Origin: Chitinophaga caseinilytica
Lineage (GTDB): Bacteria > Bacteroidota > Bacteroidia > Chitinophagales > Chitinophagaceae
DNA length: 64,000 nucleotides
Reading direction: 5' to 3'
Assembly (NCBI RefSeq): GCF_038396765.1
Contig: NZ_CP150096.1
Location: forward strand, 1,719,001 to 1,783,000
Shown in pieces: positions 6,368 through 32,117 of this stretch. Positions within the stretch are counted from its first letter, which is position 1. Each line of letters starts with the position of its first letter. The notes under the pieces were generated by a model. It was not told the origin of the DNA and made no database searches. It saw only the letters and a list, made by a program, of their open reading frames with translations. The position numbers were made by a program, and so were the translations under genes.

Positions 6368-7465
6368 ATGAAAAACTGGATACTTACCCTGCTGATGGCA
6401 GGCAGCAGCCTTACCTGGGCCTACGGCCAGGACAATGCCCGTTATACCGACGCGCGCCAATTCCAGATCGTAGGCAAAGGCCTCCCCACCGAGCCCGTGT
6501 ACCAGCGGCTGGATACCGTGCTCGACCGGGCCCTGACGCCGGCGGTGAAAAACCTGTCGAAGCACAGCTCCGGCATCGCCGTGATCTTCGAAACGAACAG
6601 TCCGTACATCAAAGCCAAATGGGGCCTTCGCAGCGGGCTCTTCCACACCAACATCACGCCCATCTGTCACAGCGGCCTCGACCTGTACGCCTGGAACAAC
6701 GGTAAATGGCAATGGGCGGGGATCGGCCGGCCGGGCGACAAAACAACCGCCAACGAATATACGCTCGTCAGCAATATGGACGGCACCATGCGGCAGTTCA
6801 TGCTCTATCTGCCTACCTATAACGAACTGACTTCGCTGGAGATCGGCGTAGCGCCGGAAGCCACGCTGCAACGGTCTGCCAGCCCTAAAATCGATACCAC
6901 GCACCGCATCGTGATCTACGGTTCCAGCATTCTGCAGGGCGCGTCGGCCAGCAGGGCGGGCATGGTGTATTCCTCCATCCTTCAGCGGAAAACGGGCTGG
7001 GATGTGGTGAACCTGGGCTTCAGCGGTAACGGCAAGATGGAATTCCCCGTGGCGGAACTGCTGGCCAAAATGCCCGCGTCCGTGTTCGTGCTGGATTGCA
7101 TCCCCAACCCTTCGCCGGCAGAAATCAGGGAAAGGGCCTATCCCTTCATCAAGCACCTGCTCGACAAACGGCCGGAAGTGCCGATCCTGCTCGTGGAATC
7201 AGTGATCCGGGAGAACGGGTATTTCGACCAGAAGATCGGTAAGATTTCGAAAGAGAAAACCGATGCTATCAGAAACGCCTATACGAAATTGAAATCGGAA
7301 GGCTATAAACAGCTGTATTATTTACCGGCCGATAACCTGATCGGGAAAGACCATGAAGGCACGATCGACGGGGTGCACCTGACGGATCTGGGGTTTGTGC
7401 GCCAGCTGGAGGCGATGTGGCCGCAGCTGCAACGATTGATGAAAAAAAGCAAAGCGATCCGCTAG
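6368..7465 (+). CDS. Secreted SGNH/GDSL-type hydrolase
   Basis: This 365-residue protein has a signal peptide (cleavage near residue 20, AYGQ). Residues about 25-170 form the beta-rich N-terminal domain common to Bacteroidota SGNH hydrolases. The catalytic domain follows: block I is YGSSILQGAS with the likely nucleophile Ser187, and block V is DGVHLTD with Asp334 and His337. Members of this two-domain group are usually carbohydrate esterases or acylhydrolases acting in the periplasm. It is a single gene between a terminator and the AIM24 gene. Substrate is not visible. Confidence 0.85.
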   Translation: MKNWILTLLMAGSSLTWAYGQDNARYTDARQFQIVGKGLPTEPVYQRLDTVLDRALTPAVKNLSKHSSGIAVIFETNSPYIKAKWGLRSGLFHTNITPICHSGLDLYAWNNGKWQWAGIGRPGDKTTANEYTLVSNMDGTMRQFMLYLPTYNELTSLEIGVAPEATLQRSASPKIDTTHRIVIYGSSILQGASASRAGMVYSSILQRKTGWDVVNLGFSGNGKMEFPVAELLAKMPASVFVLDCIPNPSPAEIRERAYPFIKHLLDKRPEVPILLVESVIRENGYFDQKIGKISKEKTDAIRNAYTKLKSEGYKQLYYLPADNLIGKDHEGTIDGVHLTDLGFVRQLEAMWPQLQRLMKKSKAIR

Positions 7466-7507
7466 AAAGCATGTAATTTTGAGCAAGACAAAAAACGCCA
7501 ACAACCT

Positions 7508-8293
7508 ATGCTGAACAATCACGACATCGATTACAAGATACACGGGGAGGAAATGCAGATCGTAGAGATCGAGCTGGACCCCAACGAGAGCGCAGTGGCC
7601 GAATCCGGCAGTTTCATGATGATGGACCAGGAGATCAAGATGGAAACCCTTTTCGGGGACGGCTCCGGGGCCAAACAGGGGATTTTCGGCAAACTGATGT
7701 CGGCCGGCAAGCGCCTGATCACAGGGGAAAGCCTGTTCATCACCTGTTTCACGAACGTAGGGAACGGCAAGAAGCGCGTGAGCTTCGCGTCGCCTTACCC
7801 GGGAAAGATCATCCCGATGGACCTGCGCCTGCTGGGTGGCAAAGTCATTTGTCAGAAAGACGCATTCCTTTGCGCGGCGCGCGGGGTGAATGTGGGGATC
7901 GAGTTTCAGCGCAAGCTGGGGACGGGGATCTTCGGCGGAGAGGGTTTCATTATGCAGAAGCTCGAGGGCGACGGCCTGGCGTTCGTACACGCCGGCGGTT
8001 ACGTGATCGAGAAGGAACTGGCGCCGGGCGAGGTGCTGAAGGTGGACACGGGCTGCGTGGTGGCTTATACCCAGCAGGTGGACTTCGACATTGAGTTCGT
8101 TCGCGGGGTGAAGAACATGGTTTTCGGTGGAGAAGGGCTCTTCTTCGCGGTGCTGCGCGGGCCGGGCAAGGTATGGCTGCAAAGCCTGCCGATCAGTCGC
8201 CTGGCGAGCCGGGTGCTGGCGTATGGAACGGGTGCCCGGAAGGAAGAGGGCAGCATCCTGGGTGGACTGGGCAACCTGCTTGATGGGGATTGA
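7508..8293 (+). CDS. AIM24 / TIGR00266-family protein
   Basis: This 261-residue protein has no signal peptide and shows the repeated beta-strand and glycine pattern of the AIM24 (TIGR00266) family: AESGSFMMMD, KQGIFGKLMSAGKRLITGESLF, GGEGFIMQKLEGDGLAFVHAGG, and VWLQSLPISRLA near the end. The family is widespread and its biochemical role is not settled. A -7-like element TAATTTTG at 7474-7481 lies 26 bp before the start, but no convincing -33 TTG accompanies it, so it may also be read from the upstream hydrolase transcript. Confidence 0.88.
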   Translation: MLNNHDIDYKIHGEEMQIVEIELDPNESAVAESGSFMMMDQEIKMETLFGDGSGAKQGIFGKLMSAGKRLITGESLFITCFTNVGNGKKRVSFASPYPGKIIPMDLRLLGGKVICQKDAFLCAARGVNVGIEFQRKLGTGIFGGEGFIMQKLEGDGLAFVHAGGYVIEKELAPGEVLKVDTGCVVAYTQQVDFDIEFVRGVKNMVFGGEGLFFAVLRGPGKVWLQSLPISRLASRVLAYGTGARKEEGSILGGLGNLLDGD

Positions 8294-8462
8294 TAATCAA
8301 CGGATTGAAATAAGCGCCTGCTGGCCGGCGGGAAACCCGGGGCTGGCGGGCGCTCCAACAGGAATGTGCATTTCGATGCAGAAATCCTTCCGTTTATACC
8401 ATTTTTGCAAAAAATTAACGATTGGATTGGTAGTATTGTGCTAATATTGCCCGGAGGCTTGA

Positions 8463-8482
8463 CCGGATACGCCGGATTTTTT
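8463..8482 (+). terminator. Possible weak terminator
   Basis: A short CCGG-ATACG-CCGG hairpin is followed by six T residues about 170 bp after the AIM24 stop. The stem is only four base pairs, so this is tentative. Confidence 0.35.
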
Positions 8483-8576
8483 GTATATTACATGGGAACA
8501 GCGTTTGGCACTGTGTGGGTGCCAATTCAGTGAATAGTCACTGGCGCAGTGAAGACAATTTATCCTGGTGCTATGA

Positions 8577-8753
8577 ATAAGAATTGAAAAACTTACTCAT
8601 GAATTTGATGCAGGTGTATCTCAAGGCAAAAATGAATTTACCAGGTCTTATATCGGTAGCCCTATAAGCGCGGTTTGGATGAGATGTCCAGTTAACCATT
8701 TGCCAGAACTACCTTTTAGAATTCCTGTCGAGCTGGATGTGAGGATTAATTAG
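8577..8753 (+). pseudogene. Decayed or start-less ORF remnant
   Basis: A 58-codon open frame with no start codon ends at TAG 8751-8753. Its translation looks protein-like (EFDAGVSQGKNEFTRSYIG, then PVNHLPELPFRIPVELDV). A short ATG frame (MNKN, stop) just upstream could be the shifted beginning. I do not recognise the family. Base composition is more AT-rich than neighbouring genes, which suggests a foreign or long-decayed piece. It could also be chance. Confidence 0.3.
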
Positions 8754-8771
8754 AAAATTTCCGCGAAAAAG

Positions 8772-8803
8772 TTGTTACGCTATGCGGCACTAAATTATCT
8801 TTG
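8772..8803 (+). promoter_or_regulatory. Bacteroidota-type promoter (TTG-N21-TATCTTTG)
   Basis: TTG at 8772-8774 is followed after 21 nt by TATCTTTG (8796-8803), matching the -33/-7 consensus of the primary sigma factor in this phylum. Transcription would begin near 8808, giving a leader of about 210 nt for the glycine-rich gene at 9017. The leader is A/U-rich. Confidence 0.6.
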
Positions 8804-9016
8804 CGATTCCATTAAAAAAAGTTGAGAAAATTAATTAATAGGTTTAAACGGAAGCCGGTATAAATTGAACATTATCAATCATCCTGACGTTATGCAGGTT
8901 ACGCGCCGGCGGATGAATAATAAAATTTTAATCATTTTTAGTTTTAACAAGTAGGTGAATTTCATTTTCATGAAATCATTGAAAAATTTGCTTCAAACAC
9001 GCTTTAATCAAGTAAG

Positions 9017-10302
9017 ATGAATTTTGAGAGAAACGAACGCCCCCGAAAGTATTCTCCTGGCTACAGCAGAGATCCGCAAGAACCCAACCAAGACCAGGAG
9101 GGCGGTTATTCCAAGAAACCCGAATTTGGCAAAGACGAGGAACGTCCTTTTAACAACACACGTTCTGAAGGCGGCTATCGCCCGCGCAGCGAAGGTGGCT
9201 ACACCCCCCGCAGCAACGACGGCGGTAATTTCAACCGCGAAGGTGCCTATAACCGCGAAGGTGGTGGTTACACCCCACGCAACGAAGGCGGTGGCGGATA
9301 CCGCGACCGTGATTTCAACCGAGGAGACCGCGATTTCAACCGCGACCGGCCTGAAGGCGGCGGCGGATACGGCGGCGGCAACCGTGGCGGAGGCTATGGC
9401 GGCGGCAGCGGCGGCGGTGGATACGACCGTGGCGGTGGCGGCTATGGCGGCAACCGTGGCGGCGGCGGATATGACCGTGGCGGCGGTGGCGGTGGCTACG
9501 ACCGTGGCGGTGGATATGACCGCGGCGGCGGAGGCGGCGGCTACGATCGCGGCGGTGGAGGCGGTGGCTTCAACCGTGGCGGCGGAGGCGGAGGCTTCAA
9601 CCGCGGAGGCGGTGGTGGATACGATCGCGGCGGTGGCGGCGGTGGTTTCAACCGCGGCGGTGGCGGCGGATATGGCGGCGGTCGCCCGCAAGGCGGCGGA
9701 GGCAGGCCCCAGGGCGGCTTCAGAGGCGGTCAGCGTCCCCCCAAGCCCGACAACAAAATTTACTTCATCGCGCTCCTCCCTACTGCTGAAGTAGGTAAGG
9801 AGATCATCAAGATAAAACAGGAATTCGCCGAGCAATACGGCCCGATGTACGCACTGAAAGTGCTCCCGCACATTACCCTGCAGGTACCTTTCACCGCCGA
9901 CCCGAGCCTCGAAAGAGCCTTCTGCGAAGAACTCACCGAGTTCGCCAAAACGCAGGCGCCCTTCGAAGTAGGCCTCAACGGCTTCGGCACATTCCCCAAC
10001 AAACAGAACCGCGTCCTCTTCATCAACGTGGAGAAATCTGAAACCATGAGCGCCATGCACCGCCAGCTGATCAACTTCCTCCGGAAGGAATTCGGCTTCA
10101 GCACCATGCTCGCCCGCACCGGTTTCACCCCCACGTAACCGTGGCCTTCAAAGACCTCGACGACGCTACTTTCGAAAAAGCCTGGCCCGAGTACGAAAAC
10201 AAGGAATACACGGCTTCCTTCAAAGTAAATAACCTGTACTTCCTCCGCCACAACGGCAAATCCTGGGAAGTACTCCAGAAATGCAAACTCGGCGGCGCCT
10301 GA
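9017..10302 (+). CDS. Glycine/RGG-rich 2H phosphoesterase (2'-5' RNA ligase-like), frameshifted
   Basis: Residues 1-80 are polar, Arg/Asn/Gly-rich. Residues about 85-245 are repeats of the type GGYDRGGGG and GGFNRGGGG, an RGG-like RNA-binding tail. From about 250 a 2H phosphoesterase domain begins (KIYFIALLPTAEVGKEI) with the first H-x-T motif in PHITLQVPF. The frame then hits TAA at 10136-10138. In the -1 frame the sequence continues as FHPHVTVAFKDL, supplying the second H-x-T motif, and runs to TGA 10300-10302. One base is missing near GGTTTCAC (10121-10128). Without it the enzyme has only one of two catalytic histidines. The domain order, low-complexity RNA binder then 2H enzyme, suggests RNA end processing; that is inference. 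Confidence 0.75.
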
Positions 10303-22074: not shown

Positions 22075-22977
22075 CTAGTTTGTCAGTTCCCTGAACACGT
22101 CTTCGAGCGACAGCGAATTGCTCTGCAAAGAAAGGATGTTCCGGTTATTTATCAAAGCGAATTGCAGCAGGTTTTTCCGTACGGTTTCGGGGTCTGCGGT
22201 GTATAGCCGCCAGGCGTTCCCTTCGGCCGGGGTTACCTTTTGGACGCCCGGGAGGGCTTCCAGATCTGCGGGGGCGGTTTCCTCGGCGAAGGCCACCTGG
22301 ATGAATCCGGAGGCGCCCTGGCGGAGGGAGCTGATAGCCCCGTCTGCGATGATATGACCTTTATTAATGATGATGGCGCGGCTGCACAGGGCTTCCACTT
22401 CCTGCATGATGTGGGTGGAAAGCATGACGGTCTTGTTCTCCCCCAGTTCCCGGATGAGCTGGCGGATGTCTGCCAGCTGGTTGGGGTCGAGGCCGGAAGT
22501 GGGCTCGTCCAGGATGAGGACTTCCGGGTCGTGCAGCAGGGCCTGCGCCAGGCCTACACGCTGTTTATAACCTTTTGATAACATGCCGATCTTCTTATGG
22601 CGCTCCGGCGTGAGGCCCGTGCGGCCGATCATTTCGTCGATCCGCGCGGAAGCGCCCTTTCCCAGCCCGTGCATGCCCGCCGCGAATTCCAGGAACTCGC
22701 GGATGTACATGTCCGGGTACAGGGGATTGGCTTCGGGGAGGTAGCCCACGCGACGGCGGACTTCCAGCGGCGCCCTGGCCACGTCGAACCCGCATACCGA
22801 TGCCGAGCCGCCGGTGGGCGGCAGGTAACCGGTGATGATCTTCATGGTGGTGGATTTACCGGCCCCGTTGGGCCCGAGGAACCCGACGATCTCGCCCTTC
22901 TGCAGGCTGAACGATATACCGTCCACCGCTTTTTGCTCCCCATACTGCTTCAGCAGCGCCGTTACGTTGATTGACAT
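22075..22977 (-). CDS. gldA: ABC transporter ATPase, GldA-like
   Basis: This 300-residue ATPase has Walker A GPNGAGKST, signature LSKGYKQRVGLAQ, Walker B VLILDEPTSGLDP and the switch His in STHIMQE, with the C-terminal extension and ending (LSLEDVFRELTN) typical of GldA, the ATPase linked to gliding motility in Flavobacterium. Its membrane partners GldF and GldG are not adjacent, so the symbol rests on sequence resemblance only. It could instead be a general ABC-2 type exporter ATPase. Confidence 0.75.
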   Translation of the reverse strand: MSINVTALLKQYGEQKAVDGISFSLQKGEIVGFLGPNGAGKSTTMKIITGYLPPTGGSASVCGFDVARAPLEVRRRVGYLPEANPLYPDMYIREFLEFAAGMHGLGKGASARIDEMIGRTGLTPERHKKIGMLSKGYKQRVGLAQALLHDPEVLILDEPTSGLDPNQLADIRQLIRELGENKTVMLSTHIMQEVEALCSRAIIINKGHIIADGAISSLRQGASGFIQVAFAEETAPADLEALPGVQKVTPAEGNAWRLYTADPETVRKNLLQFALINNRNILSLQSNSLSLEDVFRELTN

Positions 22978-23307
22978 GCGTCGTTTTTGCGGTGACTAAA
23001 TTAGCGTAAAAAAAATAGTTAACCACTAATCCCGCCCGCCACGGCTTATAAATTTTCAAATCCACCCGCCCCCGGGGTTCCGGATTTTCGTTAAGAAGCC
23101 TCCCAAATTGCTGTTTATCAAACCCAGAAAGATTTTTAAGCAGGTCTAAAATTTTGCATATGACAGAATTGGTGTACCTTTACGTCTACAATTCAAACCG
23201 ATGTAGAATATAATTTCTGCGACATACCTTCTCAATTAAATATATAAATTTACACTCATTCGTGTAGATTGGTATTCAGCCGACTTTCTTAAACCCATCA
23301 CCTGTCA
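22978..23307. promoter_or_regulatory. Divergent control region upstream of the SBP-OmpA operon
   Basis: This 330-bp AT-rich region separates gldA from the five-gene operon. It contains the inverted repeat TCTACA-N11-TGTAGA (23185-23207), a further TGTAGA at 23263-23268, and TACCTTTA (23176-23183), one base off the -7 consensus. No ORF is convincing. The repeated TGTAGA sites look like an operator, but this is tentative. Confidence 0.35.
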
Positions 23308-23970
23308 ATGTCGAACTTTCTCAAGAAGGCATTGGGTCTTTTCGTGGAATTTGAACCCAATGAACCTTTGCAGCCGGGCGGCGCTCCCGTTAGGGACTCC
23401 CTTGCCCAAAAATTCCCCCTGTCCAGCCCCAAACAGGCTGTAGCCGGTATTTCCGCCGAGGAACTGGACAAATTCGACCAGCACTTCACCCGGCTGTTCG
23501 AATCCTCCAACCTGCCCGGGCCCGATTACTTCGAGTTCTGGCGCATGATGGAAACCCTGGAAGCTCACGTGCCCGACGAAAAAGCGCGCATCGCCGCCGT
23601 ATTCGCCACACTGAGCATTCAGGGCCTCTCGCGCGACAAACTCCTCGAAACCGCCGGGCAATACCAGGCCCTCGTGGAAAAAGACCGCGCGGAATTCCTT
23701 AAAGCCGCCGAAGACAAAGCCTCCCGCGAAGTCGAAGGCCGTAAGCAGGAAATCGCCGATCTCGAAAAACAGATCGCCGAACACTCCGCCCAAATCCAAC
23801 GGCTCACGGAAGACATCACCAAAGCACAGACCGGCATGAAGACGCTCCAGGCACAAGTCGCCGAACAGGAACAGAAAATCTCCGCCAACAGGCAGGGGTA
23901 CGACGTCGCCTGCCAGGCCATGATCACGAAAATCCAGTCAGACATCCAAAAAATCCAAACCTCCCTTTAA
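23308..23970 (+). CDS. Cytoplasmic coiled-coil protein, first gene of the SBP-OmpA operon
   Basis: 220 residues, no signal peptide. Residues 1-40 are a small leader (MSNFLKKALGLFVEF), 45-105 a helical globular part, and 115-220 one long heptad-rich helix (EVEGRKQEIADLEKQIAEH). It resembles small TelA/PspA-neighbour coiled-coil proteins only in general shape; I do not recognise a named family. It starts the operon and lies 14 bp before the membrane coiled-coil gene, so it probably works on the cytoplasmic face of the same complex. Confidence 0.75.
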   Translation: MSNFLKKALGLFVEFEPNEPLQPGGAPVRDSLAQKFPLSSPKQAVAGISAEELDKFDQHFTRLFESSNLPGPDYFEFWRMMETLEAHVPDEKARIAAVFATLSIQGLSRDKLLETAGQYQALVEKDRAEFLKAAEDKASREVEGRKQEIADLEKQIAEHSAQIQRLTEDITKAQTGMKTLQAQVAEQEQKISANRQGYDVACQAMITKIQSDIQKIQTSL

Positions 23971-23984
23971 CCAGCTAACCAAAC

Positions 23985-24971
23985 ATGGAAACAAACTACT
24001 TCCCGCAACAGGGAAACGACAAACTGAAATCGTACTGGAACCGGCCAGGCGGCAAGTTCGGTGTCATCATCGGCATCGGCATCCTGATCGCAGCAGCGTA
24101 TTTCATCATGCCCATCCTGCTCGCCGTAGTCTGGAGCACCCTCAACTTCGGCATCGCCCTCGTGTGCCTCGGCGTGTTCCTGTATTGCGTCACCCACCGC
24201 AAACTCCGGCTCGCCTTCTTCTACTTCTATGAGTGGCTCATGAAGAAACTCGTAGGGATCGTCATCGAGCTGGACCCCTTCCTCATCGCGGAAGATTATA
24301 TCGGCGACATGGAAGAGCAACGCGAGAAACTCTACAAACAATCGGTAGATGTAGACGCGCAGAAAGAACGCATCGACCTCAAGATCGACGAAAAGGAAAA
24401 AGACATGGCCCAGCTGATGAGCCGCGCCAAAGCCGCGCAGAGCAATAACATGCTGCCGGAACTGGGCAACGCCACCCGGCACATCGCACGGATCAAGGAA
24501 TATATCCAGCAACTCACGCCCATCCGCGACAACCTCGCCAAAATCGGCGATTACCTCACCAAAGTTCACAAGAACTCGGGGTATATGATCGAAGATGCGC
24601 GCAATGAGCTCGAGCTGAAAAAGGACCTCTACAAATCAGTGTCGTCCGGCAACAAAGCCCTCACGTCTGCCCTCAAGATCTTTAACGGCGACCCGGAAAA
24701 GAAACTGCTGGTGGAACAGTCGATGGAATATCTGAAGGAAGACATCGCCACCAAACTGTCCAGCATGAAAAAAGCGATCAACTACTCGACAGATTTCATG
24801 CGCTCGATCGACCTGGACAACGCTACCTACGAGCTGCAGGGCCTGCAAATGCTGGAGTCTTTCGACCCGGACAAGGAATTCCGCCTCGACGTGCAGCGCT
24901 GGGAGCCTTCCAACGCGCCGCGCACGCCCGGCACCGTTCCCAACGACAACTACAATAATCTGCTGAGTTAA
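23985..24971 (+). CDS. Membrane-anchored coiled-coil protein
   Basis: 328 residues. Two adjacent transmembrane helices lie at about 24-45 and 48-66 (FGVIIGIGILIAAAYFIMPI, then FGIALVCLGVFLYCV), with a short amphipathic stretch after them. The remaining 250 residues form long helices (DVDAQKERIDLKIDEKEKDM, then repeated heptads) and a Pro-rich end. The C-terminal part probably lies in the cytoplasm, reminiscent of PspA/ESCRT-III-like or TelA-like helical proteins, but no diagnostic motif proves this. It is 14 bp after the first coiled-coil gene and 62 bp before the SBP-OmpA gene. Confidence 0.75.
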   Translation: METNYFPQQGNDKLKSYWNRPGGKFGVIIGIGILIAAAYFIMPILLAVVWSTLNFGIALVCLGVFLYCVTHRKLRLAFFYFYEWLMKKLVGIVIELDPFLIAEDYIGDMEEQREKLYKQSVDVDAQKERIDLKIDEKEKDMAQLMSRAKAAQSNNMLPELGNATRHIARIKEYIQQLTPIRDNLAKIGDYLTKVHKNSGYMIEDARNELELKKDLYKSVSSGNKALTSALKIFNGDPEKKLLVEQSMEYLKEDIATKLSSMKKAINYSTDFMRSIDLDNATYELQGLQMLESFDPDKEFRLDVQRWEPSNAPRTPGTVPNDNYNNLLS

Positions 24972-25033
24972 CCCTTGGCAAGTAACCATTCATATTTCCG
25001 TACAAACATCAAACAACTTAAAACATCCCTACA

Positions 25034-26800
25034 ATGGCAATTAAAGTAAAACCTGGTGGTAAAGTATTAGGTATCCTTATTCTCCTCGGCGGTCTGTACG
25101 CCGGTAAAGTATTCTGGTGGGACAAGCGCCCCCAGGAAGCGAAAGCCGCTACCGAAATCGGTAAAGTGAACCTCCCCGATGCACCCGAAGCATCGCTCAG
25201 CGGCAACGCGGCCAAGCTGGAGCTGCCTTCGACCGAAGTGTCCGGCAACGGCGGTACCCGCATCCAGTGGAAGATCATGGCGTGGAACTCGCAGTTTGCG
25301 CTCATGTATGCCAACGGCGGCCCCAAAACGACGAAAAATTCCCTGATCGATAAAGCGAAACTGGAAGTGGACGTCATCCGGCAAGACGATTGTAACAAAT
25401 CCATCGCCGATATGGTGAAGTTTGCGCAGGATTACAAGTCCGACCCCAACACTCCCGGCGTTTTCGCGTCGTTCATGGGTGATGGTATGCCGATGTTCTT
25501 TGCCGCGCTGGCAAAGGAGCTCGAGCCCCTCGGTCCCGAATATCAGCCCATCGCCTTTTACTCCATGGGTAAAAGCTACGGTGAAGACAAACTGATGGGC
25601 CCCGCCGAATGGAAACTCAATCCCAAAGCGGCTATCGGTAAAACCGTGGCCTGCGTGCTCCGCGACGGCGACATGAACATCCTCGTGAAATGGGCGGGCG
25701 ACAACGGCATCCGCGTGAACCCCGACGAAACTTCGTTCGACCGGAACGCCATCAACCTCATCGCTGCCAACGACTTCCTCGACGCGGCCAACAAATACAT
25801 CGCCGGGTACAGCGAAACGCGCAAGTTCGTGGAGAACGGCAAGAAAGTAGCCAAAGACACGACGGTGGGCGTAGACGGTGTTGCCACCTGGACGCCGGGT
25901 GACGTGAACATCGCGCAGAAAAAAGGTGGCTTGATCAACATCGCCACCACCCGTGAGTATGCCGCACAGATGCCGAACATCACCATCACCATCAAGAAAT
26001 TCGCGAACGACCACCGTACAGACATCGAGAACCTCATCATGGCGCTGGCGCAGGCCGGCGATCAGGTGCGCTCCTTCAACGATGCCAAGGCTTTCGCTGC
26101 CGACGTATCCGCCAAGGTGTACAACGAGCAGGACGGTGCTTACTGGCTGAAGTATTATAACGGCACCGAAGAGAACGACGCGCAGGGCACGAAGCTGCAC
26201 CTCGGCGGGTCTATGGCCTATAACCTCGCAGACGCCGCCAACATGTTCGGCCTGGGAGACGATAAGCTCGACCGTTACAAGATCGTGTACGGCACATTCG
26301 GCGACATCCTCGTGAAAATGTACCCCGAGCTGGTGCCTGCGTACCCGGTGTACAACAAGGTGGTCGACAAATCGTTCCTCGCCAGCGTGGTGAGCAACCA
26401 TCCCGAACTGCTGACCGGCGCGGCGATCAAAGTAGAATATGCGGACGCGATCACGAAGGAAGTGTCGTCCAAATCGGTACAAGTGCAGTTCGAGACCGGT
26501 AGCGCCGTGATCCGCCCGGAATCTTACGCCGTGCTCGACGATATCCTGAAAAGCGCCGTAGTGGCGGAGGGGCTGAAGCTGGGCGTGTATGGCCATACCG
26601 ACAATGTGGGCAACGACGAAGCCAACCTGAAGCTGTCTAACGAGCGCGCCGCTTCCGTAGTGGCATACCTCCAGGCCAAGGGGCTCGCGGCCAACAGGCT
26701 GGAATCCAAAGGCTTCGGTGCGTCCAAACCGGAAACCACCAACGCTACCGCCGAAGGCCGCGCGAAGAACCGCCGCGTGCAGATCGTGCTGGGTAACTAA
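25034..26800 (+). CDS. Membrane-anchored solute-binding domain fused to OmpA peptidoglycan-binding domain
   Basis: 588 residues. A signal anchor at about 10-28 (VLGILILLGGLYAGKVFWW) without an obvious cleavage site is followed by a linker and a type-2 periplasmic-binding fold (about 80-460) of the kind used for nitrate, taurine and sulfonate (IQWKIMAWNSQFALMYANGG, VACVLRDGDMNILVKWAGDN). Residues about 475-588 are an OmpA/MotB domain with the peptidoglycan-binding Asp in GHTDNVG and Arg in KNRRVQI. The protein would hold its binding domain between inner membrane and cell wall, beside the permease and ATPase encoded downstream. The ligand is unknown. The fusion is uncommon, and I know no described function. 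Confidence 0.85.
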   Translation: MAIKVKPGGKVLGILILLGGLYAGKVFWWDKRPQEAKAATEIGKVNLPDAPEASLSGNAAKLELPSTEVSGNGGTRIQWKIMAWNSQFALMYANGGPKTTKNSLIDKAKLEVDVIRQDDCNKSIADMVKFAQDYKSDPNTPGVFASFMGDGMPMFFAALAKELEPLGPEYQPIAFYSMGKSYGEDKLMGPAEWKLNPKAAIGKTVACVLRDGDMNILVKWAGDNGIRVNPDETSFDRNAINLIAANDFLDAANKYIAGYSETRKFVENGKKVAKDTTVGVDGVATWTPGDVNIAQKKGGLINIATTREYAAQMPNITITIKKFANDHRTDIENLIMALAQAGDQVRSFNDAKAFAADVSAKVYNEQDGAYWLKYYNGTEENDAQGTKLHLGGSMAYNLADAANMFGLGDDKLDRYKIVYGTFGDILVKMYPELVPAYPVYNKVVDKSFLASVVSNHPELLTGAAIKVEYADAITKEVSSKSVQVQFETGSAVIRPESYAVLDDILKSAVVAEGLKLGVYGHTDNVGNDEANLKLSNERAASVVAYLQAKGLAANRLESKGFGASKPETTNATAEGRAKNRRVQIVLGN

Positions 26801-26810
26801 CGGACCATTT

Positions 26811-26838
26811 CCCCGGGCGGGCTTGCCGGCCCGGGGAT
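26811..26838 (+). terminator. Intra-operon hairpin (possible attenuator)
   Basis: CCCCGGGC, 10 nt loop, GCCCGGGG followed by ATTTTC, 10 bp past the SBP-OmpA stop and 25 bp before the permease start. The T tract is short, so it would reduce rather than stop transcription of the permease and ATPase relative to the binding protein. Confidence 0.6.
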
Positions 26839-26862
26839 TTTCATCCTCCAAAACATTTCGTA

Positions 26863-27645
26863 TTGAACAAGCTTAAAAACATATTCGAACCACTTCGCAG
26901 CATCAACCCGCGGACCATGGTGATCCTCATCGTAGCCGAAGCGGTGGTGGCGCTGGCAGCGTGGCAACTGTCGGGCGGAGGGCTCATCCCCACGCCGGAT
27001 AAGGTGGTTTCCGCTATCGGCCGGATTTTCGTCATGCCCGATTTCATCGACAACCTGTTCGCCAGCCTGGTGCTGACGGTCAAGGGTATGACGATTTCGA
27101 TCCTCATCGCCCTGGTGATCAGTTATTTATCGATCGTCCCGTTTTTCCAGCCGCTGGCCAGGTTCGTCATCAAATGCCGGTACCTCACGCTCACGGGGCT
27201 CATCTTCCTGTTCACGCTCCTCACGCAGAACGGGCATCAGTTGAAGATCAGCCTGCTGATTTTCGGGATCGTACCGTTTTTCGTGACCTCGCTGCTGTCT
27301 GTCATCGATGGGATCAACAAACAGGAATACGAGTTGTGCACAACGCTGCGGATGAACAGTTGGCAAACGCTCTGGGAAGTGATCATCGTGGGGCGGCTGG
27401 ACCAGGTATTTGAAGTGATGCGGCAGAACTTCGCCATCGCCTGGCTGATGATCACGTCTGTAGAAGGTTTGAGTATGAGCGAAGGGGGGCTGGGCGTGAT
27501 GCTGATCAAAGCGAATAAATACGTTCAGCTGGATGTGGTGTTCGGGCTGCTGGTGATCATCTTCCTGATCGGGATGGCATTCGATTACATACTGGGGCTT
27601 TTCCGCCACTGGTTATTCCCTTACACCAAACTGCAAACACGCTGA
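26863..27645 (+). CDS. ABC permease, nitrate/taurine (SsuC/TauC) type
   Basis: 260 residues with about six transmembrane helices. The cytoplasmic EAA-like loop is visible in ELCTTLRMNSWQTLWEVIIV and GRLDQVFEVMRQNFAIAW, as in SsuC/TauC-type permeases. The annotated start is TTG (MNKLKNIFEPL); an in-frame ATG at 26917 would give 242 residues beginning directly at TM1. The stop overlaps the ATPase start by one base (TGATG), so translation of the two is probably coupled. Together they form a complete two-component importer core. Confidence 0.88.
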   Translation: MNKLKNIFEPLRSINPRTMVILIVAEAVVALAAWQLSGGGLIPTPDKVVSAIGRIFVMPDFIDNLFASLVLTVKGMTISILIALVISYLSIVPFFQPLARFVIKCRYLTLTGLIFLFTLLTQNGHQLKISLLIFGIVPFFVTSLLSVIDGINKQEYELCTTLRMNSWQTLWEVIIVGRLDQVFEVMRQNFAIAWLMITSVEGLSMSEGGLGVMLIKANKYVQLDVVFGLLVIIFLIGMAFDYILGLFRHWLFPYTKLQTR

Positions 27646-28448
27646 TGAACGCATATTCGAAAAGCCATTTACTGCTGAGCGCGGAGAATATTCATTTGCA
27701 GTATGGCGAAAAAGTGATCCTCCGCGACATTAACTTCAAGATCCACAACGTTCACCGCGAAGGCGTGGAACAGGGCCAGGTAGTGGCGCTCATCGGGCGG
27801 AGCGGCCTGGGCAAGACGCAGCTGTTCAAGGTACTTTCCGGGCTGGTGCCCCCCACGCAGGGGACCGTCCGCATCGGGGCAGACCAGCATCCCGTACAGG
27901 CCGGCCAGGTGGGTATCGTGCCGCAGAACTACATCCTGTTCCAGCACCGTACCATCTACCAGAACCTCCGCATCGGCCTCGACCATTCCGGCGTTGCGCT
28001 CAGCGATGCCGAGAAAAAGCGGATCATCGAAGATTACGCCACCACTTTCGAGCTGATGGACCATCTCAAAAAGTACCCCGCGCAATTGAGCGGGGGCCAG
28101 CGGCAGCGGGTGTCCATCATCCAGCAGGTACTTACCGGCAACCGGTTCATTTTGCTCGACGAGCCTTTCTCCGGCCTGGACATTCTGATGATCGACCGGG
28201 TGATAGCACTGTTATTGAAAGTTTCGACGCTGCACGAAGAAAACACCCTCATCGTGGTGAGCCACGACATCGAGAATGCCGCGGCCGTGTCTGACACGGT
28301 GTGGCTCATGGGAACGGAAGACGGCAAGCCCGGCGCCACCATCCGCAAGGAATACGACCTCTGCGAAATGGGGCTCGCCTGGAACCCGGAGATCCGTACG
28401 GACCGGAGGTTCGTGGAACTGATCGATGAGATACGTAAAGGGTTGTAG
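27645..28448 (+). CDS. ABC ATPase of the SBP-OmpA transporter
   Basis: 267 residues with Walker A GRSGLGKTQ, Q-loop IVPQNYILF, signature LSGGQRQRVSI, Walker B FILLDEP with the catalytic Glu, and switch His in VVSHD. An insertion before Walker A (FKIHNVHREGVEQGQVVA) lengthens the first strands compared with SsuB/TauB. It closes the operon and is followed by a bidirectional terminator. Confidence 0.92.
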   Translation: MNAYSKSHLLLSAENIHLQYGEKVILRDINFKIHNVHREGVEQGQVVALIGRSGLGKTQLFKVLSGLVPPTQGTVRIGADQHPVQAGQVGIVPQNYILFQHRTIYQNLRIGLDHSGVALSDAEKKRIIEDYATTFELMDHLKKYPAQLSGGQRQRVSIIQQVLTGNRFILLDEPFSGLDILMIDRVIALLLKVSTLHEENTLIVVSHDIENAAAVSDTVWLMGTEDGKPGATIRKEYDLCEMGLAWNPEIRTDRRFVELIDEIRKGL

Positions 28449-28468
28449 TTTGACGTTCGTAAAATAAA

Positions 28469-28506
28469 ACAAGGGCGGGGAATGATCTCCGCCCTTGTTG
28501 TTTTTG
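28469..28506. terminator. Bidirectional terminator
   Basis: ACAAGGGCGG ... CCGCCCTTGT hairpin with T run, between the ABC ATPase and the convergent DUF4332 gene. Confidence 0.88.
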
Positions 28507-30758: not shown

Positions 30759-32117
30759 ATGACGCATCTGCAACCTGGGGTAAGCGCCCCCGACTTTTCC
30801 GCCGTGGACCAGCATGGTAACACCATATCGCTGGCCGATTTCAGAGGAAAGAAAGTCATCCTCTATTTTTACCCGCACGACATGACGCCAGGCTGTACAA
30901 CCCAGGCCTGCAATCTCCGTGATCACCATTCCCAGCTGTTGAACAGAGGGTATGCCGTGATCGGCGTTAGTGAGGATGACGAGGCGAGCCACAAGAAATT
31001 TAGCGACAAGTACGACCTGCCCTTTCCCATTCTCGTGGATACCAGCCACGACATCCTGAATGCCTACGGCGTTTGGGGCGAAAAGACATTCATGGGCCGT
31101 ACTTACGACGGTACCCATCGTACCACTTTCCTCATCGATGAAGAAGGCAACATCGCCCACATCATCGCAAAACCAGACAACGGAGACCACGCCCGCGAGA
31201 TCATCGAGCTCTGGGAAGGCCACACCGATGGTTGGGTAGACGTGAAGCCGGAAGAAGAGAAAGCCGCTGAGCCCGTAGCCGCCGCAACCACGGAAACAAC
31301 CGTTGAAGCTGCCGCGCCCACTGCTGCACCTGCTCCGGCCGCGCCTACTAAAAAAGCGCCCGCCAAAAAGAAGGCCGCCGCTCCCGCTGAAAAGAAAGCG
31401 GAACCTGCAGCTCCCGCCAAAAAGCCTGCTGCCAAAGCAAAACCGGCTCCGAAAGCGAAAGCCGCTACCAAAGTGAAGCCCGCCGCCAAGAAAGCCGCTG
31501 CTAAAGCTGCACCTGCCAAACCCGCTGCGAAAAAGGCTGCCGCTAAACCCGCCGCCAAAAAAGCTGCTGCTAAGGCAAAACCCGTAGCGAAGAAAGCCGT
31601 CGTTAAAGCGAAACCCGCTCCGAAAGGCAAAGCCAAAGCGGCCGTAAAGGCCAAACCGGTAGCGAAGAAAGCGGCAGCCAAGAAGGCTGTTGTTAAAACA
31701 AAACCGGTAGCGAAAAAAGCAGTAGTGAAAGCGAAGCCCGCTCCGAAAGGCAAAGCCAAAGCGGCCGTAAAGGCCAAACCGGTAGCGAAGAAAGCGGCAG
31801 CTAAGAAGGCCGCCGTGAAAGCAAAACCGGTAGCGAAGAAAGCCGTAGTGAAAGCGAAACCCGCTCCGAAGGGCAAAGCGAAAGCCGCTGTAAAAGCCAA
31901 ACCGGTAGCCAAAAAAGCCGCCATTAAAACGAAACCTGCCCCCAAAGCGAAAGCTAAGGCAGCCGTAAAGGCGAAACCCGCTCCCAAGGCCAAAGCGAAA
32001 CCCGTAGCCAAAAAAGCCGCGGCGAAAGCAAAGCCGGTAGCCAAGAAGGCGGCTTCCAAAACCAAGCCGAAACCCGCAGGCTGGGGCACGCCCAAAGCGA
32101 AAGCTAAAAAACGATAA
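30759..32117 (+). CDS. bcp: Bcp/PrxQ peroxiredoxin with lysine/alanine/proline-rich histone-H1-like tail
   Basis: 452 residues. Residues 1-155 are a complete PrxQ/Bcp thiol peroxidase (GVSAPDFSAVDQHG, and TPGCTTQACNLRD with peroxidatic and resolving Cys four residues apart). Residues about 170-452 are a low-complexity tail of Lys, Ala and Pro (KKAAAK, KAKPVAKK, KAKPAPKGKAK) with very high positive charge, like eukaryotic histone H1 tails or bacterial H1-like proteins. The tail is partly built from 123-bp tandem DNA repeats. A normal Bcp is about 150 residues, so this protein is three times longer. The tail probably holds the enzyme on DNA or RNA; that is inference. Confidence 0.9.
   Translation: MTHLQPGVSAPDFSAVDQHGNTISLADFRGKKVILYFYPHDMTPGCTTQACNLRDHHSQLLNRGYAVIGVSEDDEASHKKFSDKYDLPFPILVDTSHDILNAYGVWGEKTFMGRTYDGTHRTTFLIDEEGNIAHIIAKPDNGDHAREIIELWEGHTDGWVDVKPEEEKAAEPVAAATTETTVEAAAPTAAPAPAAPTKKAPAKKKAAAPAEKKAEPAAPAKKPAAKAKPAPKAKAATKVKPAAKKAAAKAAPAKPAAKKAAAKPAAKKAAAKAKPVAKKAVVKAKPAPKGKAKAAVKAKPVAKKAAAKKAVVKTKPVAKKAVVKAKPAPKGKAKAAVKAKPVAKKAAAKKAAVKAKPVAKKAVVKAKPAPKGKAKAAVKAKPVAKKAAIKTKPAPKAKAKAAVKAKPAPKAKAKPVAKKAAAKAKPVAKKAASKTKPKPAGWGTPKAKAKKR
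31571..31935 (+). repeat. 123-bp (41-codon) tandem repeats inside the bcp tail
   Basis: The block beginning AAACCCGCTCCGAA occurs at 31611, 31734 (with one change) and 31857, spaced exactly 123 bp apart, and the sequence around each copy is nearly identical. The repeats keep the reading frame. Tail length is therefore likely to vary between strains. Confidence 0.85.

Follow-up and report, generated by a model that had tools for sequence, protein, structure and literature searches.

The 64,000-nucleotide stretch of Chitinophaga caseinilytica DNA analysed here (assembly GCF_038396765.1, contig NZ_CP150096.1, positions 1,719,001 to 1,783,000 of the forward strand; hereafter the window) carries a compact module of five genes, A to E, which joins two coiled-coil proteins, a solute-binding domain fused to an OmpA domain, and the permease and ATPase of an ATP-binding cassette (ABC) transporter. 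In the open reading frame (ORF) listing of the window, all five genes lie on the plus strand and span positions 23308 to 28448, exactly as an earlier note on this DNA had described. They are separated by 14 (A-B), 62 (B-C), 62 (C-D) and -1 (D-E) bases. The earlier note gave the same spacings with one 14 too many, so that five numbers stood for four gaps, and the gene set it proposed is borne out by the ORFs and the domain matches.

A scan of species genomes yielded 79 named loci, which are related to one another, so that the counts given below do not stand for independent events. The order ABCDE on a single strand is found in 64 of the 79, contig ends truncate another 13, and the remaining two are genuine exceptions; in relatives, the coiled-coil genes are thus tied to the transporter, as the earlier note had supposed. 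One exception (L042) retains B and C only (6987-9767) in an organism that holds a full copy elsewhere (L045), and this second copy is possibly an orphan binding arm. The other (L061) consists of C, D and E only. Over 63 of the 79 loci, leaving aside the two exceptions, the cut loci and L084, which looks frameshifted, distances between loci, taken pairwise for each of the five genes, correlate at 0.86-0.94, a range obtained without a control gene that shared descent alone would also yield.

The loci fall into four subtypes. S1 comprises the window with relatives from Chitinophaga and Cytophagales, and many Chitinophagaceae make up S2. S3 is the family f24 (L100-L102), where the relatives of B bear the name Hymenobacter; S4 unites the family f20 (L103-L105) with 12 loci of the window's own family. 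The order ABCDE is kept throughout S4, both in the window's family (12 of 12) and in f20 (3 of 3). All three S3 loci read B-C-D-E, with a 240-aa ORF at the place of A whose likeness to A is weak (E 4e-6 in L102, 5e-4 in L100 and none in L101). Trees of B and of C both separate S1 from S2 and disagree on the placement of S3 and S4.

The module is widespread but sporadic. Full-length C occurs in 8 of 25 genomes of the same genus, our own included, and in 0 of 15 others of the order, while the profile of the solute-binding domain finds it in 31 of the 294 family genomes, spread over 17 of 101 genera, and in 8 of the 395 phylum genomes, again with our own included. The only loci labelled as lying outside Bacteroidota are one from a metagenome-assembled genome (L027, Chlorobiota) and the exceptional L061 (Williamsia), and both labels are doubtful.

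Gene C (25034..26800, plus strand) encodes a 588-aa protein anchored in the inner membrane, in which ORF, Pfam and structure model (pLDDT, a predicted confidence, of 88.2) delimit three parts. A signal-anchor helix without lipobox (residues 7-29; 25052..25120), visible in the model and in hydropathy, is followed by a solute-binding domain at about residues 73-465 (25250..26428) and an OmpA domain at about residues 483-587 (26480..26794; Pfam E 1.1e-22). Model and Pfam agree in this with the signal anchor and the fusion announced by the earlier note. The fusion is no artefact of one genome, being present in 75 of the 79 loci and interrupted by contig ends in the remaining four. The C of Chitinophaga deserti is 94% identical to that of the window.

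By structure comparison, the binding part has the TauA/CmpA/SsuA fold, with 10-13% identity to proteins of that type in structure alignments; a profile of this part gave nothing meaningful against the PDB (best E 0.43). Residue conservation was read from alignments A3, A4 and A5, with 41, 42 and 41 hand-picked rows including the window, chosen from the 74-79 loci plus L100-L105; L102 was omitted from A3 and A5 on account of overlapping ORF starts. The binding part of C contains 62 invariant residues, among them the stretches AWN, MGDG, GED, DGD and WTPxD, which appear to sit after predicted strands of the model, like the ligand loops of the TauA/SsuA-type fold. Such strong conservation implies a specific ligand. 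In the OmpA domain, T522, D523, G526, N531, R538, N579, R580 and R581 are invariant in 42 of 42 aligned members, a set (TD..G, N..L...R, NRR) which we take to mark peptidoglycan binders. This domain differs from the known peptidoglycan-binding domains of OmpA, Pal and MotB by its partner, here a solute-binding domain instead of a barrel, a lipoprotein or a motor.

Gene D (26863..27645, plus strand) encodes a 260-aa ABC importer permease resembling SsuC, TauC and SaoP (BPD_transp_1, E 5.8e-8). Against NCBIfam it matches SaoP (E 1.5e-10) and TauC (6.8e-7), both under the cut-off, and these matches with BPD_transp_1 uphold the SsuC/TauC-type permease of the earlier note. Its EAA loop has diverged, with the glycine kept in 40 of 76 members and the proline lost in 76 of 76. 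Gene E (27645..28448, plus strand) encodes a 267-aa ABC ATPase with catalytic motifs (ABC_tran, E 9e-28): Walker A K57 is present in 69 of 69 rows, and the signature, D172-E173 and H207 are kept wherever they are aligned, 2-3 of the 69 rows being unaligned there. With the TauABC, SsuABC and NrtABCD-CmpABCD importers (NitT/TauT type), the module has in common the binding-protein fold and a catalytic ABC ATPase. It differs from them by the OmpA domain and membrane anchor of C and the acid-rich character of its invariant set, by the additional genes A and B, and by the diverged EAA loop of D.

Gene B (23985..24971, plus strand) encodes a 328-aa PspA/IM30-like protein anchored by a transmembrane hairpin, as judged from its ORF, PF04012 and Foldseek. 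The two-helix membrane hairpin covers residues 22-71 (24048..24197) by hydropathy, the model placing helices at 23-70 and 72-94, and a PspA-like helical hairpin follows at residues 97-232 (24273..24680). Residues 97-196 align with PspA 23-119 in Pfam and residues 97-230 with Vipp1 24-157 in a VIA-align comparison of the structure model, so that profile and fold agree in setting B from residue 97 on PspA/Vipp1 residue 23-24. Foldseek searches with this model, which is of low confidence, returned Vipp1 at all of ranks 1-9. With PF04012, the B of the window scores 20.4 bits, under the Pfam cut-off of 33.9, and 20 of 41 members match at E <= 0.1. The best of the 41, B of L100, reaches 33.5 bits, still under the cut-off, and among the matches listed for its close relatives PF04012 is assigned in 115 of 120; the PspA signal is stronger among Hymenobacter kin than in the window.

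Controls were run on this likeness. In hhalign, the B proteins of S1 and S3 matched canonical PspA with a probability of 33% (P 4.5e-4, covering PspA 24-146), against 0.2% for reversed B, 0.3% for S2 B and 3.0% for family A. In hmmsearch, the PspA profile gave median scores of 8.2 bits for S1, 16.0 for S3, -0.9 for S2 and -6.8 for S4, where reversed B stayed at or below 2.8 and members of family A reached as much as 8.5; for the versions of B tested from S2 and S4, the PspA profile gives no match. A B profile found nothing under E 0.05 in the PDB (best 0.077; CdvB, an ESCRT-III protein of archaea, came third with 0.25). From this likeness, which is weak but controlled, B may be a remote relative of PspA/IM30. 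Its helical part aligns with PspA and Vipp1, and it differs from the PspA/Vipp1/ESCRT-III superfamily by the transmembrane hairpin in front of that part, by the Pfam score below cut-off and by the unmatched S2 and S4 versions. Of the PspA/TelA-like shape suggested in the earlier note, the PspA half stands, while no TelA model appears among the matches listed.

The distribution of PspA-like proteins gives B a wider interest. No PF04012 match over the cut-off was found in 13 genomes including our own, in which gene B is the only match under E 1e-3, and the genomes of the same family and of the same order in the phylum sample have none at E 1e-6 either. Because of these absences, the module may be the seat of the PspA-like function in the genomes that carry it. 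Between S1 and S2 (L013-L091), the mean distance of B is about twice that of C (0.70 versus 0.34), whereas within the two subtypes B and C are alike (0.24/0.22 versus 0.23/0.19), which suggests that the scaffold gene was exchanged, or rapidly changed or re-tuned, between them. As a separate observation, the matches listed in a survey of PspA in Bacteroidota form two score groups, one above 110 bits and one of about 55-79 bits with frames of 250-580 aa, a pattern that could reflect a second PspA-like family of the phylum.

Gene A (23308..23970, plus strand) encodes a 220-aa protein defined by its ORF and by a consensus with a conserved NLPGPDYYEF-type stretch, and ends in a C-terminal coiled coil. 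None of 41 aligned members has a hydrophobic segment, so the protein is soluble and cytoplasmic. Its Pfam matches are generic coiled coil, the best 60 of 157 PDB profile matches include coiled-coil-type ones, and neither search returned an informative family; no PspA match was obtained for A. A profile comparison of A with B gave a probability of 46% over the coiled coil, which we judge uninformative.

A stem-loop lies between C and D (26810..26837, plus strand), whose position is kept in relatives and whose sequence is not. Folding was scored wherever 70 bases were available 3' of a stop codon, so that the number of loci varies by gene. The 70 bases after C fold much better than their shuffles, with a median z of -3.74 and z <= -2 in 55 of 74 loci. 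That threshold is reached by 6 of 74 loci behind A, 4 of 78 behind B and 33 of 66 behind E; by eye, about 3 of 24 loci viewed singly were without a strong stem. Since the position is retained while the sequence is free, the hairpin suggests selection for uneven expression, with A-B-C above D-E. Uneven expression of this kind is known from binding-protein operons. After E, a terminator-like hairpin with a 14-pair stem followed by GTTTTT (28468..28499, plus strand) is the probable end of the operon. Upstream of A, no element is clearly conserved beyond the closest relatives, and a match to a sigma-70-type promoter (23185-23214) lies close to the chance level (5 such matches against a mean of 3.1 and a standard deviation of 1.9 in shuffles). 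Rfam gave nothing at the gathering threshold over the window.

In the f20 loci, a gene for a protein with AAA and AAA_lid_6 domains follows E, immediately in L103 and L105, with a PhyH gene in between in L104. No homologue better than E 1e-10 exists in the genome of the window or, among the other groups, in 16 of 17 genomes that bear the module, and no AAA+ gene stands at the module in the 12 S4 loci of the window's family or in L100-L102. The 17th genome contains a 2177-aa frame (G010:C12:64777-67257, L149) in which three AAA stretches, 35-37% identical to the f20 AAA+ protein, follow each other in another layout.

The AAA+ gene of f20 joins the module to a published description. In a single sentence, Ravi et al. 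2024 (PMC11237479) mention operons with PspA, TM-Snf7, AAA+, ABC ATPase, permease and PBPB-OmpA; there, the OmpA domain is said to be able to bind peptidoglycan while PBPB binds solute, and such operons are tied to ATP-dependent membrane remodelling. Compared by description only, these longer operons (for example OGG56892.1) share with the module the ABC ATPase, the permease, PBPB-OmpA and PspA/Snf7-type coiled coils, one of them with a transmembrane part, whereas the module of the window has no AAA+ ATPase and its A has no PspA match. The passages on those operons mention neither the subtypes nor the hairpin after C. A literature search, mainly outside subscription journals and supplements, found no other paper with this gene set and no experiment on it. 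The gene set is thus not wholly undescribed, contrary to the earlier note, and what is new is the five-gene core lacking AAA+, its subtypes and the position-conserved hairpin.

We propose, with about an even chance of being right, that the module is an ABC importer operating in a patch of inner membrane that is anchored to the wall and carries a PspA-like scaffold. D and E would form a TauC/SsuC-type importer, and C, reaching from the inner membrane (N terminus) to peptidoglycan (C terminus), would serve this importer in place, without diffusion. B and its cytoplasmic partner A would provide the scaffold beneath the importer's patch of membrane. The importer would thus be held in a wall-attached, braced zone, probably importing a protective or wall-related solute under envelope stress. 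The physical complex, the direction of transport, the binding of peptidoglycan, the function of B and A as a scaffold and the role in stress are what we infer here.

Other explanations share part of this evidence. An ordinary nutrient importer, with C as no more than its tethered binding protein and with A and B having no stress role but serving as passive stabilisers or in assembly, is unlikely but agrees with the fold of C, nearest to TauA, SsuA and CmpA, and with the hairpin after C, which suggests that the binding protein is expressed over the permease. Tethered binding proteins are also common. Against such a plain importer, A and B are linked as tightly as the transporter genes, and B resembles a superfamily concerned with membrane stress. 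The earlier note had imagined a machine that senses the distance to the wall; in such a mechanosensor or tether, gauging the distance from inner membrane to wall, the ABC part would be regulatory. The anchoring of C at both ends, by its signal anchor and by an OmpA domain with invariant T522, D523 and N579-R581, would suit it, yet the conserved binding domain implies a specific ligand and the 79 loci contain no further conserved gene of the module that could carry a signal, making this very improbable. Ligand-dependent ABC work is favoured over a purely mechanical sensor because the ATPase motifs are intact and the binding domain is strongly conserved. An ion-driven motor like MotAB, ExbBD or GldLM, with B (two transmembrane helices and a helical tail) and C (one such helix and OmpA) as its stator, is scarcely credible. 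It recalls the gross architecture of B and C, and three rows named 'Gliding motility protein GldL' stand among the listed relatives of L100 B; but none of the columns in B's membrane hairpin has acidic residues in more than 30% of members, C passes that share at residue 30 alone, which lies directly outside the helix, and no GldL, MotA or ExbB model matches B among the matches listed.

A quite unlikely alternative is a ligand-gated remodeller, in which C would sense a solute or wall fragment and D-E would be an ATP switch assembling or releasing a B/A coat, with import minor or absent. D-E would then do the job performed elsewhere by Vps4-like AAA+ ATPases. The AAA+ gene downstream of E in the three f20 loci, with its absence from most genomes of the other groups, is consistent with this, as are the diverged EAA loop of D and the remodelling link drawn in PMC11237479. 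The catalytic motifs of E and the conserved binding domain of C nevertheless resemble those of a working importer, and in the literature searched we found no earlier case of a PspA coat being remodelled by an ABC importer. The boldest version of the remodeller, slightly less likely still, would make the ABC unit the ligand-gated ATP motor of an ESCRT-III-like coat, informed of a solute or wall fragment by a receptor pinned to membrane and wall. If true, the substitution of ABC for AAA+ would be the defining step, with f20 keeping both.

In this compact and portable gene set, evolution has bound an ABC importer and a peptidoglycan anchor to a PspA/ESCRT-III-like membrane protein. A published hint of a link between membrane remodelling and solute transport becomes testable in a minimal five-gene system that exists with and without an AAA+ partner.

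Several other identities were considered and dropped. For TelA, for GldL, for MotB or a stator and for a defence system (PADLOC), no supporting model stands among the matches listed; these are of the OmpA type in C (to ZorB), of the ABC-ATPase type in E (best mad3, E 1e-22) and generic coiled coil in A and B. In plasmids, the solute-binding part of the window's C was unmatched; a distant C gave 544 records, none spanning 80% of the query, and the 30 listed of these fall towards its OmpA end.

The surroundings of the module are less constant. An ABC ATPase gene lies upstream of A on the opposite strand (22075-22977, minus), and a DUF4332 gene on the minus strand and an M23 peptidase gene on the plus strand follow downstream, all assigned from ORFs and Pfam. 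These flanking genes accompany the module only in the nearest Chitinophaga loci. Antisense ORFs aside, the largest of the other gene clusters near the module occurs in just 14 of 79 loci and is bound to a lineage. Further along the window, at 30759-32117 on the plus strand, lies a peroxiredoxin gene (AhpC-TSA, E 9e-42 at residues 7-134) with a tail of about 300 residues rich in alanine, lysine and proline. Pfam matches the redoxin part only, and the tail is histone H1-like by impression.

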